Assembly (NCBI GenBank): GCA_032358255.1
Contig: JAULBX010024517.1
Span: 1-64,000, forward strand
Direction of reading: 5' to 3'
DNA: 64,000 bases
Origin: Heterotrichella gracilis
Lineage: Eukaryota > Sar > Xanthophyceae > Tribonematales > Xanthonemataceae
A model generated the notes under the pieces. That model was not told where the DNA came from. It did no database searches and saw only the letters and a program-made list of their open reading frames with translations. Below, piece by piece: positions 1 to 64,000 of this stretch. The stretch's first letter is position 1, and the number at the start of each line of letters is the position of its first letter. The position numbers were made by a program, and so were the translations under genes.

Positions 1-56
1 GGCAGCGCCGCCTCCACCAACAAAAACACCCCCCCCCCCCACCCCCCCCCACCCAC

Positions 57-3000
57 CTGCAGCTTGGCGGCCAGCGCATCCTTCACCCCGCTCGCCAGCA
101 GGTTATTCAGCTGGCTTAGGATCGCGCACACCGCCACCACCCGGCCCGACGCCAGCGCCCGCCGCCCCCCCTTCTGCAGTATGAAGAACACGTCGTCCAC
201 CATGGACGATGTCAGCGAATCCGAGGTGTAGGTGTCTATTTTCACCGCCTTGGCCACGCTCTCAGCCATGTAGAACTCCTCCATGGTAACGTAATACGAA
301 ACAATGTCTCGCATGGCGCTGCCAAAGGCGCCCCCGCGGACCGCGTTCTCCAGGCCGCTGGATGCGCGGGGGGAGGCAGTGGGGGTGGTTGCGTCCATGG
401 CGCGGGTGACTAGGAAGTGGGAGTACTCCTCTGCCCGCTGGCACATCACCAGCATCTCCTCGAGGTAGGATTCCACCTGGGGTGCAGGGGTTCAGGGTTA
501 GAGTAGGGTTTAATTATGTTGCAGTAGGATGCAAAAACAGGAGGGTTTGTTCCCATGTGGCGCGGGGTTTGATTCACTGTCCTGCCCTTCTCACACTCAC
601 ACACACCCACCACCACCGCCACCACCACCCACCTGCCTAAAGTCCACAGTGTTGGCCTCGGGGGCACCCTCGGACCGCTTCCCTAGCCCTCCATCCTTCA
701 CCATGCGCTGGGTTTGATGCGCAGTGCTGCCAACGCAACCCCCGCCCCCCCCACCATCTACCCCCCAAACCCCACTCCTGGAGTGCGCTCTCCACCACGG
801 CACCACCCCAGTACCCGCCACCACACCACCGCCGCCGCCACCACCCACCTGCCTAGGGTCCACCGCGCTGGCCTCGGGGGCCGCATCGGACCGCTTCCTC
901 AACCCAATGTCCTTCACCATGCGCTGTATCTGGCGCACAGCGATGTAGCGCTGCACCACCCGAGCCCCGTGTACATCGCACTCCTTCTGCAGCCCCTCCA
1001 CCGCCGCAAGCACGGCCCCAGAGCCAAATGTGGCGCGCAGGAGGGGGTCGTTCTCGTCGATTGCCACCGCGATGTCCTTGAATAGGTTGGAGAGGGTGTT
1101 GACAAACTCGGGGCCGGTGTTGGTGCCTGGTGGGGCAGGGGGGGGAGGGTTATATTTTAGGGTTTAGAATGCCATGCATGATGGTACAATTGGCAGTGTG
1201 AATAATGCAACTTATTGGACGCAAATGATGTACCTTATTGAACCCATGATACACCATAGTCAACTTCGTTGGGGCACCCTGCACCCTAGACACTAGACTT
1301 GCTTTCCCTACCTGCGTCCACTAGCGTATTGTAATCCTCCTTGGCGCGCTCACCAACCACCCTCCGCAGGTATTCCACAAATAGGTTCAGGCCCTCACTC
1401 TGCACGGGCCAACAAGGGGTCATGCGTCAGCAAGGTGGAAAGCGGGGAGCAGGGGTGGCATATGTCAATCAGCAAATGGGATGGCATGGCGGCCCTAGGG
1501 ATGATCCCATAAACTATGCACGGGTCGAGACAGGTGTGCAGGGTTGTGCCGCACCGCTCGCCAGAGCGGTGTGCAAACCCTGGCTAGGGTTTTGAGGCAG
1601 TGTTCAGGGCGGCTGCGTACCCCTAGGCGGAGCGGCGTGAAGAGCTTTGCGTATCGCACCACCGTGGCATGGTCCTTGGCCACAATGGCCTCTTGAACCC
1701 GAGAGCGCACAATCTGCTCCAGCCGCTGCTTGGCATCCATCAGCACCTGCATGGATGGGGACCAATTCAAATCTACGCCATCTGTTGGTGGCTCAGAGGC
1801 ATGGAGGTTGAGCTGTTTAGGGATTAGGGTTTACGCGAGGTGGCTTGAGCGCACAATCTGCTACAGTTGTTGCTTAGCGTCTATCAGCACCTGCATGAAC
1901 AGGGGCAATTTCAATTCCCATTCCCTGTAACAAGGCCCAGAGCCATATCTTAGGCAGAAATTTGCTTTATGCAAACTGGCCCATTCAAATCCCCGGCAAA
2001 TGTTGGAGGTCTCAAGAGTCCAACAAGTTGACTTCCTTTACCTCCAAAAGTGGCTGCAATGCAAGATCGCCCCTGACACCCGTTAGAGATGGGTAACCGC
2101 GGTTTGAAAGTTGATTAGGGCTGCAAAAGGAAGTAAAGCATACCTCCAGTTGCTCTTGTGCCTGCCTGTTATCCAGCTCAGTCTGGTCAGTGGTTCCATA
2201 CTGCTCCTCAATCTCCATGAAGGTCGCGATGTTATCAGCCGCAGCCTCGTAGTCTTCCGCCTCCATGGCCTGCCGCATGCCGTCGATGCACGTGGTGCGG
2301 TTGATGATGATGTTGATGCGCGACAGCGTCTCGCCCACCCTGGACTGGGCAAGGTCGAGCTCCCTGACTTTGCAACTCACTCTGTCTGCAAGGGCGGAGG
2401 TGCTGTGCACGCTTTGGGCCAGCCCCTCTGCGTCCGCCCTCACCAGCTCCAGCGTCTGCAGAGGGTGATGGTATGTTAGGGTTTAGGGTGAGGAGTTGGA
2501 GTGTCCTGGAGTAAAGGGTTTATAGTTTAGGCTTGTGCACGCTTTGGGCCAGCTCCCCTGCATCCGCCCTCGCCAGCTCCAGCGTCAGCAGGGTGTGGTG
2601 GTACGCTAGGGTTTAGGGTTTAGGGCAAGGAGTTGGGTTTGTCGCTGGTGTGCTGTGCAGTGCAAAGGGGAAGCAGGACTAGCGAGGTAGGTCCCAGGTG
2701 GAACTGGAGGTTGGTGAGGCTCAGATGCACAGCAAGGCTTGCCGTTTGTGGGCCAGGTTTGTTAAAACCATACTGGTAGGACCATGCATGGCTACAGCTG
2801 TAGCTTGGTATCACAGCACAGTTGCAGTAGGCTGTCAAGGGCTGTACAGTGTGAGCAAGTCTGAAAGCAGCAAAGCTTCCTTCATAACCCAAGGGGTGTC
2901 AACCATCCTAAGATGCCAGCAAGGTTCTGGAGATCACATCTCCCTGCAAGCTAAACTCCCTGCAACTCCTAGGTCAAGCACAACTGGGAAGAAAGAAGAA

Positions 3001-3276
3001 ATGGATGAGACAAGCCAATTTGAGACTAGGGGTGCTGGTCCTATGTGCTAGTGGTTTGGTCTGTACCTCTGCAGTTGAAGTTTGGAGGACAACCAGGCTC
3101 CGTTCGAGCTCGCCCCGCTTTGATAGCAGCTGTTCCAGCTCAGCATCGATGCTGCGCTCTTTAGCCACGGTTTCTTGCAACAGCCGGTTGATGTCGTTGA
3201 GGTTGGTGAGCTTTCCCACTGCCTCCATCTCCATGGGTGGGTTATGGAGGGCAGGCATGGTGTCTCCACACGCCAA
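57..3276 (-). CDS. COG4: COG4, conserved oligomeric Golgi complex subunit 4 (C-terminal part beyond window)
   Basis: COG4 belongs to lobe A of the cytosolic COG tethering complex, which captures retrograde vesicles at the Golgi. Six exons are visible on the minus strand: 3276-3067, 2455-2144, 1746-1621, 1399-1312, 1126-849 and 476-57. Splice phases agree at every junction, giving about 478 residues before the frame leaves the window through an intron donor at 55-56. Recognition rests on the N-terminal stretch with LTNLNDINRLLQET, the strongly conserved KVRELDLAQSRV followed by CIDGMRQAMEAEDYEAAA, and the later VVRYAKLFTPL. The family is usually about 740-780 residues, so roughly the last third is missing. 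The start is taken at the first in-frame ATG (3276); the inner methionines at 3258, 3234 and 3228 are also possible. Introns contain three degenerate copies of neighbouring exon edges. The gene is divergent from NHP2. Confidence 0.92.
600..713 (-). repeat. Partial copy of COG4 exon 5 donor edge
   Basis: This intronic stretch repeats the 3' edge of the COG4 exon at 849-1126 together with the flanking CCACC-rich intron sequence. The donor GT is retained. The encoded residues QRMVKDGGLGKRSEGAPEA diverge slightly from the true exon (QRMVKDIGLRKRSDAAPEA). It lies between the real exon and the next exon at 57-476, so it can act as a decoy donor. Confidence 0.85.
1843..1925 (-). repeat. Degenerate copy of COG4 exon 3 acceptor edge
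   Basis: The sequence repeats about 75 bp covering the 5' edge of exon 1621-1746 and its upstream intron, with many substitutions. The CT (AG on the minus strand) of the acceptor is still present. It sits upstream, in transcript order, of the genuine exon. Confidence 0.7.
2531..2636 (-). repeat. Copy of COG4 exon 2 acceptor edge with lost AG
   Basis: About 100 bp repeat 2403-2500: the first part of the exon at 2144-2455 plus the intron upstream of it, including the TTAGGG-type tract. In the copy the acceptor CAG has become CTG, so this decoy is disabled, unlike several others in the window. Confidence 0.8.
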
Positions 3277-62567: not shown

Positions 62568-63722
62568 GTATTGGCCTACATCCATGCGCAGGGGGTCATT
62601 CACAGGGACCTCAAGCTCGCCAACATCTTCCACGATGCCAAGGGGGGCATACAGCTGGGGGACTTTGGCCTGGCCAAGGAATCAATGGCCCTGGGGGGTG
62701 GATGACCCCATGGGGGCAACAGGTGAGGGAACAGCCTATCCATACAGCACTACTGGTATGTCTATGCTCATACTAGTGCGGCACGTAAGTGGCTAGTACT
62801 CTGAACCCTGGCGGTTTGTAAATGCTAATACTGTCACTTCTTTAGTAGAGAGGGTATGCCCCACCCATATCCCCATCCATTGCAGGTGCCTTTCCCTTCC
62901 CATGGCATCTGTCCTCCACTGGGGGCTGTTGGCCCCATTTCCGCCGAAACCACCGGCGTGTGCCGGACATCTTTCTAGATTTCGCCGGAGATTGCCGACG
63001 GCTGGGCGTACTACGACGACAAGGTGGGAGGTGGGAGAGAACTGTTTGAAGGATTCAAGGTTTTGAACCAACAGCTTGCCCTGCCCTGTGGAAAATTTGA
63101 CTGTACACAACTGTTGCATGGGCTAGTGTGTCTGGCAAGGTTGCTAAAGCACGTCGCCCAGATTAATGTGCCAACCCCAACCTAGGGCTTCCATAGCATG
63201 ACGCCCAGGATCTTGTGCCAATCCGACCACAGGTTGCTGTCACCCACGTATTTCAGTGCCAACTAGGGATTCAAAATACCACGTATTGTCGGGAAAAAAT
63301 ACTTAAATACACGTATTTTTACCCTTTTCTGAAATACGTACGTATTATACGTAAAATATACGTTAAATGATTATTAATATTAAATATAGTCAATATATTT
63401 TCATATAAAATCTCAGTTTTGTTTTTTAGAGGTGAAACAAGTAGGATTTCCCAAATGAGTTATGGTTTGGGCTTTTTTATGTAGTTGAATGTAGATTTTC
63501 TGTTTTTGGGGCAGTAATCAATAAATATCGTTACTGATTATTGTAAAAAGTGACACGTCATCACGTATTTTCAGCGTATTTTCAACGCATTGAAATCTCA
63601 AAATACGTATTTTTACGTATTTACGTATTGCGTATTACGTATCACGTATCTTGAATCCCTAGTGCCAACCCTAAGCAACGGTTTCCGTGCCTCTCCAGGT
63701 CGACCTGTACAGCCTGGGTGGG
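62568..63722 (+). pseudogene. Fragments of a GCN2-like (eIF2alpha kinase type) protein kinase
   Basis: The piece at 62569-62698 encodes [20 protein letters not shown] and then [14 protein letters not shown], covering the catalytic loop (HRDLK, with Leu for the usual Pro) and the DFG motif. The best acceptor (62545) runs into an in-frame TAG, but CTGACAG at 62568 would avoid it. Further pieces are 62979-63023 (ISPEIADGWAYYDDK) and 63699-63719 (VDLYSLG), collinear with the APE-like and DxxSLG regions of GCN2-family kinases. The activation-segment exon between them is not recognisable, and after SLG the sequence diverges. A 398-bp MITE lies in the last intron-like gap. The gene could continue beyond the window; partial decay is more likely. 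Confidence 0.65.
63256..63669. mobile_element. hAT-type MITE with perfect 8-bp target duplication
   Basis: A 398-bp AT-rich element (63264-63661) is bounded by terminal inverted repeats TAGGGATTCAAAATAC and its imperfect complement GTATCTTGAATCCCTA. It is flanked on both sides by GTGCCAAC, an 8-bp target-site duplication. The TIR start TAGGG and the 8-bp duplication are typical of the hAT superfamily. The interior has many ACGTATTT motifs near both ends (subterminal repeats) and no coding capacity, so it is non-autonomous. The unbroken target duplication suggests a fairly recent insertion. Confidence 0.92.
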
Positions 63723-64000
63723 GACTTCGGATGGGCTGGCCACGCTGCTGTCGCCCAACATAAACCAGGTGTGTGGTGGTGGTGGGTGGCGTGGTGTGAG
63801 AGTAGGCAGGGTGTAGTGATGTGTGTGTGTGTGGACGCAGGTAGGAGGGTGGTGTAAGTGTGCACGGAAAGGAATTACCACACGATATCTCATCCCCCTA
63901 GTTCATTGTTGCTTTCACTGCCTTTGTAAACGGTTGCGTGCATGCATGGAATATGCACACCACTTGTGATCCCCCCCCCCTCCCCCTGCGCTGGAACCCC
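63723..64000. other. Window end without recognised coding sequence
   Basis: GT-rich and C-rich low-complexity sequence is present; no exon could be supported. Confidence 0.4.

Follow-up and report, generated by a model that had tools for sequence, protein, structure and literature searches.

Direct duplications of coding ends, often with telomere-type spacers, in the genome of Heterotrichella gracilis

Genes and duplicated coding ends in the window

The window analysed here, bases 1–64,000 of contig C246 (JAULBX010024517.1) in the draft assembly GCA_032358255.1 of Heterotrichella gracilis (Xanthophyceae; 68.5 Mb in 903 contigs), carries genes for COG4, IF-2, V-ATPase B, a secreted protein, a kinesin, a TPR protein and VPS28. 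Ends of their coding segments recur as short direct copies in the adjoining intron or 3′ flank, separated from the parent by a spacer that in about half of the cases includes telomere-type repeats. An earlier note on this DNA had claimed that such copies of exon ends are recurrent and always in the same orientation as the parent; both claims are borne out, and beyond the window as well. Local repeat pairs in a 254-kb sample number 144 direct versus 4 inverted, with none in shuffles and 12 palindromes set apart, and outside the window a copy accompanies 58/408 exon edges (35/203 donors and 23/205 acceptors; 2 inverted).

The sample comprises the window and twenty 10-kb loci fetched outside it, denoted by L-numbers; one locus is all N and was left out, and two carry 100 N each. 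Six further short loci were taken in addition to this sample. With the window and fetched loci as training data, a two-strand gene hidden Markov model (HMM) predicted 375 complete introns, which in the model start with GT(G/A)(A/G)G and end with TGCAG or similar. Since copies were sometimes called as exons (V-ATPase B, kinesin, TPR) and some exon ends were missed or misplaced, an exon-length filter was applied where stated and examples were inspected by eye. The VPS28, COG4, IF-2 GTPase, kinesin and TPR genes are backed by Pfam, and the V-ATPase B gene by alignment to a solved structure. Two raw translations had no match in a Pfam scan. The top scores of the V-ATPase B protein are to V-type proton ATPase B1 and B2 chains, above brain-isoform and other vacuolar chains; the comparison table names no organism, and we take these B1 and B2 chains to be plant proteins.

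With low-complexity and telomere-rich copies filtered out and palindromes set apart, the window holds 52 local direct pairs and no inverted pair. Unfiltered, and within 3 kb, there are 47 direct and 3 inverted pairs, the latter being one palindrome and two telomere-motif matches. A hand tally of the unfiltered table yields 34 direct-repeat loci. Contact with an exon edge or a coding end is made by 26 of them; the remaining eight lie at 22832, 39428, 51203, 52003, 56589, 57424, 58469 and 61991.

On the reverse strand, COG4 has an exon end with its donor (819–926) and an intron copy (604–710), together spanning 604–926, followed by an acceptor edge (1703–1773) copied upstream in the intron (1847–1917; span 1703–1917) and by another acceptor edge (2404–2489) with its copy (2534–2619; span 2404–2619), where CCCTAAA units lie next to both. 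IF-2, on the forward strand, begins the series with an exon end and donor at 9973–10120, copied at 10071–10120; the gene finder did not call this exon, which we place by its GTPase motif. At 11625–11942 another exon end of IF-2 is copied together with its donor, and the spacer has TTTAGGGTTTAG at its end; an acceptor edge forms period-75 units (parent and two copies) with CCCTAAACCC (12778–12969), and a donor edge and its copy enclose TTTAGGGTTTAGGG in the spacer (12998–13160). An acceptor edge (13313–13543) and a donor edge (13614–13899), each with a copy, complete the IF-2 sites. The C-terminal region of IF-2 recurs as a second, partial copy at 18903–19819, ~3.4 kb past the end of the gene model, and is probably a larger local duplication.

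V-ATPase B, on the reverse strand, carries an exon-edge duplication at an offset of 213 (27287–27717), an acceptor tract with three exon bases and its copy (28053–28144), and a donor edge (29492–29528) copied at 29323–29359 (span 29323–29528), this donor being set by the known protein around GRRGYPG and differing from that of the gene finder. In the same gene an acceptor edge is accompanied by seven intron copies with telomere-like spacers (29670–30588); from the exon outward, the copies are 97, 96, 90, 93, 93, 80 and 75% identical. A 154-bp imperfect palindrome that matches its own reverse complement at 77%, resembling a small foldback element, also lies in a V-ATPase B intron (30604–30757).

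In the secreted-protein gene (forward strand), a donor edge is present as parent and two copies with a period of 115 and TTTAGGGTTTAGGG in the spacer (34358–34668), and an acceptor edge (35351–35399) has two copies (span 34940–35399). Downstream are a donor edge with a copy (35449–35695), a donor of which chiefly the intron part is duplicated, with CCCTAAA units (36032–36215), a donor edge and copy with a CCCTAAA spacer (36758–36971), an acceptor-edge array (37145–37537), and the stop-codon end with two downstream copies (37836–37872 and 38098–38176; span 37620–38176). The kinesin gene (reverse strand) has an acceptor edge and copy at 45841–46002. The TPR gene (forward strand) has an acceptor edge with two copies and CCCTAAA-like spacers at 52837–53254, a weaker third copy lying further upstream, and its last predicted coding end is copied at 53817–54064. 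VPS28, on the reverse strand, shows all three kinds of end: the stop-codon end, stop included, is copied ~115 nt downstream (55681–55903), a donor edge is copied across a spacer of CCCTAAA units (56237–56403), and an acceptor edge is copied at 56421–56566. Upstream of the VPS28 model, on the same strand, a 52-bp array of GTACG and CCCTAAACCCTAAA (57424–57647) was not counted as an edge and is perhaps an unpredicted exon end.

Placement, anatomy and decay of the duplications

Over the whole sample, a copy occurs in the adjoining intron at 48/280 donors and 44/283 acceptors. Placement was further evaluated with 60-nt segments for which a direct partner was sought within 1 kb, using Fisher tests. 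Segments centred 15 nt inside the exon have a partner at 43/265 donors and 43/275 acceptors, in keeping with the claim that copies adjoin the parental exon, compared with 53/945 (5.6%) for exon interiors (centred 90–150 nt from the edge), 38/562 for intron interiors, and 13/808 (1.6%) for intergenic DNA. Inverted partners number 0–2 per edge row, 5/562 in intron interiors and 8/808 in intergenic DNA, and null comparisons gave 0–1 per row. A denser count, which includes overlapping windows and in-protein repeats, is less favourable to an edge excess, at 151/749 (20.2%) for edges versus 73/767 (9.5%) for exon interiors. Taking both counts, edges thus exceed exon interiors two- to threefold, and they exceed intergenic DNA about tenfold. 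Along the junction profile, the proportion of segments with a direct partner is ~16% just inside the exon, ~3.5% at 30–45 nt into the intron (the zone of fresh spacer), and 7–11% at 90–160 nt (the zone of the copy).

The same bias is apparent per locus. Among 97 distinct repeat loci, 83 hold exon sequence and 72 have a copy across an exon edge, whereas random placement of segments that are not wholly exonic would give exon contact in 24%. We judge at least three of the 14 loci listed as exon-free (9973, 28053 and 36032) to be exon edges at which the model predicts few exon bases or misses the exon; at 9973 the listing arose because the gene finder missed the exon. Repeat spans hold 13.5% of predicted intron bases versus 3.2% of intergenic bases. 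Repeat-bearing introns are not longer than others (median 284, n = 101, versus 261, n = 274; p = 0.96), so net intron growth is unsupported and the simplest idea of growth is weighed against.

Copying is not specific to splice junctions. Under a single test, in which segments were centred 30 nt within coding sequence, a direct partner was present at 41/265 donors, 38/275 acceptors and 9/52 predicted stops, so that stop-codon ends are copied about as often, with the proviso that some predicted stops are probably misplaced splice donors (e.g. L017 1968). Copied stop ends occur in VPS28, which is the clearest case, in the secreted protein and in L009. The Pfam profile of VPS28 is matched through to its final position, at residue 148 of 150, and the stop is therefore very likely the true C-terminus. 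Predicted starts display no clear peak (3/42 at –15 and 5/42 at +15). As donors, acceptors and stop ends are affected alike, the cause seems independent of splicing, and the copying of stop ends favours a process that affects coding DNA generally and becomes visible where the second copy is harmless.

The typical unit has the form S-F-S, in which S comprises an exon end plus a few to ~40 intron bases and F is a spacer with a median length of 85 nt (75 exon-linked cases). In young donor pairs (≥88% identity, n = 14), S has 16–79 exon bases and, in 13/14, 2–19 intron bases; of these 14 pairs, all with the copy on the expected side, 13 have non-overlapping copies with gaps of 37–385 nt. Taking all copies together, the intron part is longer: in about half of the cases the alignment extends to +18 (donors) or –25 (acceptors), the queries having held only 30 and 40 intron bases. 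Three examples read by eye (L014 twice, L020) have a sequence after the copy that is unlike the spacer. At L014 3735–3877 the spacer contains TTTAGGGTTTAGGGTTAGGG followed by an inverted 29-nt copy, 93% identical, of sequence ~140 nt upstream. Local matches were found for 16/82 spacers (14 direct, 2 inverted) versus 0/246 in null comparisons, and we read most of the 14 direct matches as further array copies. Spacers were also considered as a mobile element or introner, a candidate that was set aside: two spacers were searched genome-wide (very common words skipped, other spacers not searched), and each occurred only at its own place, with no sign of dispersal.

At some loci S+F units form tandem arrays, and in some of these the copies abut, unlike in 13/14 young donor pairs. 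A cyclophilin donor in L031 has, by reading, three nearly intact copies and one decayed copy, the gene being assigned by Pfam. At 26 multi-copy edges, the nearest copy scores higher in 18, the opposite holds in 7, and one is tied (p = 0.04); three of these edges come from loci chosen for visible arrays, and one (51416) may reflect TPR protein repeats. Two further repeats stand apart from exon ends. L011:2470–2708, a satellite-like array of 78 bp in which exact TTTAGGG units are lacking, is among the few young intron repeats without exon sequence. L020:5804–6104 is an 85-bp direct repeat, 99% identical, well inside a predicted intron of 992 nt; its spacer measures 131 nt and has no TTTAGGG.

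Copy identities range from <70% to 99%, which fits the proposal of a continuous process. In 58 pairs with one copy partly exonic and the other wholly non-coding, differences at codon positions 1, 2 and 3 number 98/915, 96/913 and 183/904. Given this concentration at position 3, the exon copy is constrained and the non-coding copy decays neutrally; in the same alignments, exon parts are 86.2% identical and intron parts 81.0%. Duplicated splice sites, which the earlier note had called decoys, do exist as sequence: GT is kept in 49/57 donor copies and AG in 44/57 acceptor copies. Neutral decay would leave 41.6 and 42.5, respectively, and no purging of decoy sites is detectable in these 57 donor and 57 acceptor copies. 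The process might, as the earlier note proposed, also seed new exons. Separately, the exon end at L017:6887–6930 reads CAG followed by GCAAGT, which points to a GC donor; in the donor model, as trained, C has a share of 3% at intron position 2.

Telomere-type repeats in spacers and near exon edges

At least six contigs (C70, C140, C526, C609, C717 and C770) carry TTTAGGG arrays of six units or more among their first bases, and TTTAGGG is therefore probably the telomere repeat of this organism. Exact telomeric 7-mers cover 2.9% of intron bases, 1.3% of intergenic bases and 0.23% of exon bases. The association of TTTAGGG with the space between copies holds for about half of the cases: a telomeric 7-mer is present in 36/75 exon-linked spacers, compared with 14.8% of matched intron segments (n = 3236) taken from outside repeats.

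Near donors, telomeric units are found at 23/45 edges with a detected repeat versus 33/242 without, and near acceptors at 16/44 versus 38/243; the corresponding mid-intron windows give 7/34 versus 30/253. Units peak ≤40 nt from exon edges, except TTAGGG before acceptors. Immediately upstream of acceptors CCCTAA is strongly favoured over TTAGGG, a preference that would be expected if the AG in TTTAGGG were avoided near the splice site.

The genome-wide extent proposed from the window is apparent from motif counts over all 68.5 Mb, where TTTAGGGTTTAGGG has 5629 matches versus 5 for the reversed pattern. CAGGTGAG is accompanied by TTTAGGG within 30 nt in 307 cases and at 90–120 nt in 113, and by CCCTAAA within 30 nt in 225, with reversed controls of 1–2. 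CCCTAAA precedes TGCAGG by 3–33 nt in 2108 cases and by 93–123 nt in 1341, with reversed controls of 15 and 24, respectively; units of telomere type may thus have come to serve as branch-point or pyrimidine-tract sequence. In these distance counts tandem units are counted repeatedly and arrays add to both distances.

Origin of the duplications

The explanation that we favour, at roughly even probability, is that breaks around coding DNA, mended by repair of the end-joining type, left the duplications behind as scars. In this model, two ends overlapping by ~30–100 nt, as from a staggered break or from sister ends broken at different points, would be joined, with the overlap S retained in both copies and a spacer F inserted between them, including telomere-type repeats in about half of the cases. 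If S lay inside an exon, the insertion would disrupt the protein and the event would be lost, so few interior duplications would be expected; if S extended past a splice site or stop, the outer copy would be functional and the other would be spliced out or lie beyond the stop. A tolerated event would persist and decay as neutral DNA, and S+F units could later multiply in tandem. The separation of young copies by a spacer in 13/14 donor pairs is consistent with such repair, as is an inverted local template in 2/82 spacers, including the 29-nt copy in L014. Break repair with telomere-type filler, as the earlier note had envisaged, is plausible, with the filler seen in about half of the spacers; its restriction to splice junctions does not stand, given the copied stop ends (9/52).

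Several observations weigh against repair of this kind. Overlaps of 30–100 nt are long for a staggered break (4–12 bp in Daphnia, according to PMC4202315), and about half of the spacers are without a telomeric 7-mer. Telomeric units occur in 3/10 spacers that are not exon-linked, at equal base coverage, and telomerase polarity is absent, with 22/53 units nearer the predicted priming end of a broken 3′ end. Partners of exon interiors, at 5.6% to 9.5%, are above zero. Uniform breakage combined with selection also fails to predict the deficit of exon-free loci, so that an extra coding bias must be assumed; the preference for coding DNA over introns and intergenic DNA (83/97 loci versus 24% expected) is unexplained by the break-repair model.

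Replication slippage or template switching would instead produce plain tandem duplications straddling coding ends, the spacer being the intron part of the unit and pre-existing telomere-type repeats acting as stalling sites. We regard this as possible though doubtful: several arrays do consist of tandem units with shared spacers (34358–34668, 12778–12969, 57424–57647 and L031), and one spacer has a clear inverted local template and a second a 22-nt one, but 13/14 young donor pairs align over less than their offset, and the spacer differs from the sequence after the copy in the three examples read by eye. An unlikely alternative is a detection effect only, whereby duplications arise everywhere and the conserved exon copy keeps exon-linked pairs visible for longer. 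Such an effect is in line with the higher identity of exon parts than intron parts (86.2% versus 81.0%), and with the relative abundance of intron-only pairs among the young: at ≥90% identity (30 pairs) there are 10 edge–intron and 6 intron–intron pairs, compared with 22 and 3 at 80–90% (66 pairs), or 13 and 9 versus 30 and 6 with short exons relabelled as intron. The gain in visibility would, however, be at most about twofold, and exon linkage at 83/97 loci exceeds even a doubled expectation of 48% (binomial p = 1e-14). Direct partners in intergenic DNA (13/808) barely exceed inverted ones (8/808), and they stay low at high GC (8/266 at GC ≥0.58), which also makes GC content an insufficient cause of the exon bias. 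Moreover, telomeric units, which are independent of pair detection, show the same peak near edges.

A process tied to splicing, in which the spliceosome or RNA-templated repair at junctions copies the junctions, could account for the short intron part at young donors (≤8 nt in 9/14, a few gene-finder junctions being misplaced). It is nevertheless very improbable, as stop-codon ends are copied as often, donors and acceptors are affected alike, and the intron part is longer over all 64 donor copies, 47% of which still cover +20. Still less credence is due to the view that the copies are traces of introns born through staggered-break or AGGT tandem duplication. Such births are known elsewhere (PMC4202315, PMC4974935), but here the upstream exon end is rarely like the intron end and the intron start rarely like the downstream exon start: in a test of anchored homology, 1/375 introns scored ≥15 (0.05 expected) and 4 scored ≥10 (1.2 expected). 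In young pairs, furthermore, S already includes the splice site on both copies. An assembly artefact is the least probable explanation of all; the assembly is a draft with runs of N in the fetched loci, yet divergence tracks codon position, identities are widely spread, and the same structure occurs at unrelated loci on many contigs.

The ingredients of the pattern are known singly. Short interstitial telomeric sequences at double-strand breaks in primates, rodents and horse share internal telomeric units, sometimes with random sequence, and flank duplication at a staggered break, the telomeric insertion with such duplication being described in a figure legend (PMC7215372). The same paper gives a human intron share of 31%, said to fit random insertion, whereas in H. 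gracilis the units hug coding ends, matches run to thousands and duplications span ~30–100 nt. Internal telomeric units are common to both, as is flank duplication or filler (telomeric here in 36/75 spacers only); telomerase polarity from the broken end was not found (22/53 units). New Daphnia introns likewise have direct repeats at exon ends as well as internal ones, which PMC4202315 ascribes to staggered breaks and proposes as a means of lengthening introns, but those repeats are 4–12 bp and belong to recently gained introns, whereas ours are ~30–100 nt, have telomeric spacers and coincide with almost no intron gain. The potato RdRp gene (PMC4974935) also has a tandem duplication across an intron–exon boundary that carries splice signals; it is a single gene in which a new intron was produced, unlike the many loci, spacers and near absence of intron gain seen here. 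Direct repeats at or near intron borders are the subject of PMC11782384, which compares the two borders of one intron, finds 4–30 bp and reads them as intron insertion, unlike the present case. The pattern is not reported among the titles and abstract openings of the matches listed in open-licence literature, and hence the combination, its number and scale, and its placement at coding ends look new.

We tentatively propose, as a possibility well short of even, a process of this lineage that prefers coding DNA and generates duplications of 30–100 nt whose filler derives from telomeres, so that introns and 3′ flanks gain new DNA outward from the coding ends. If true, introns would preserve traces of lost copies in layers, and the interiors of coding segments would bear a heavy, hidden burden of purged events. 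The break-repair model predicts that interior duplications arise equally often but are purged. Gene finders can take copies for exons, as the HMM did here, and annotations of such genomes may therefore be wrong. The duplications would give a measurable class of mutation around coding ends, would connect repair filler of telomere type with the way gene structure is shaped, and would offer alternative splicing a large stock of duplicated splice signals in each genome to draw on.

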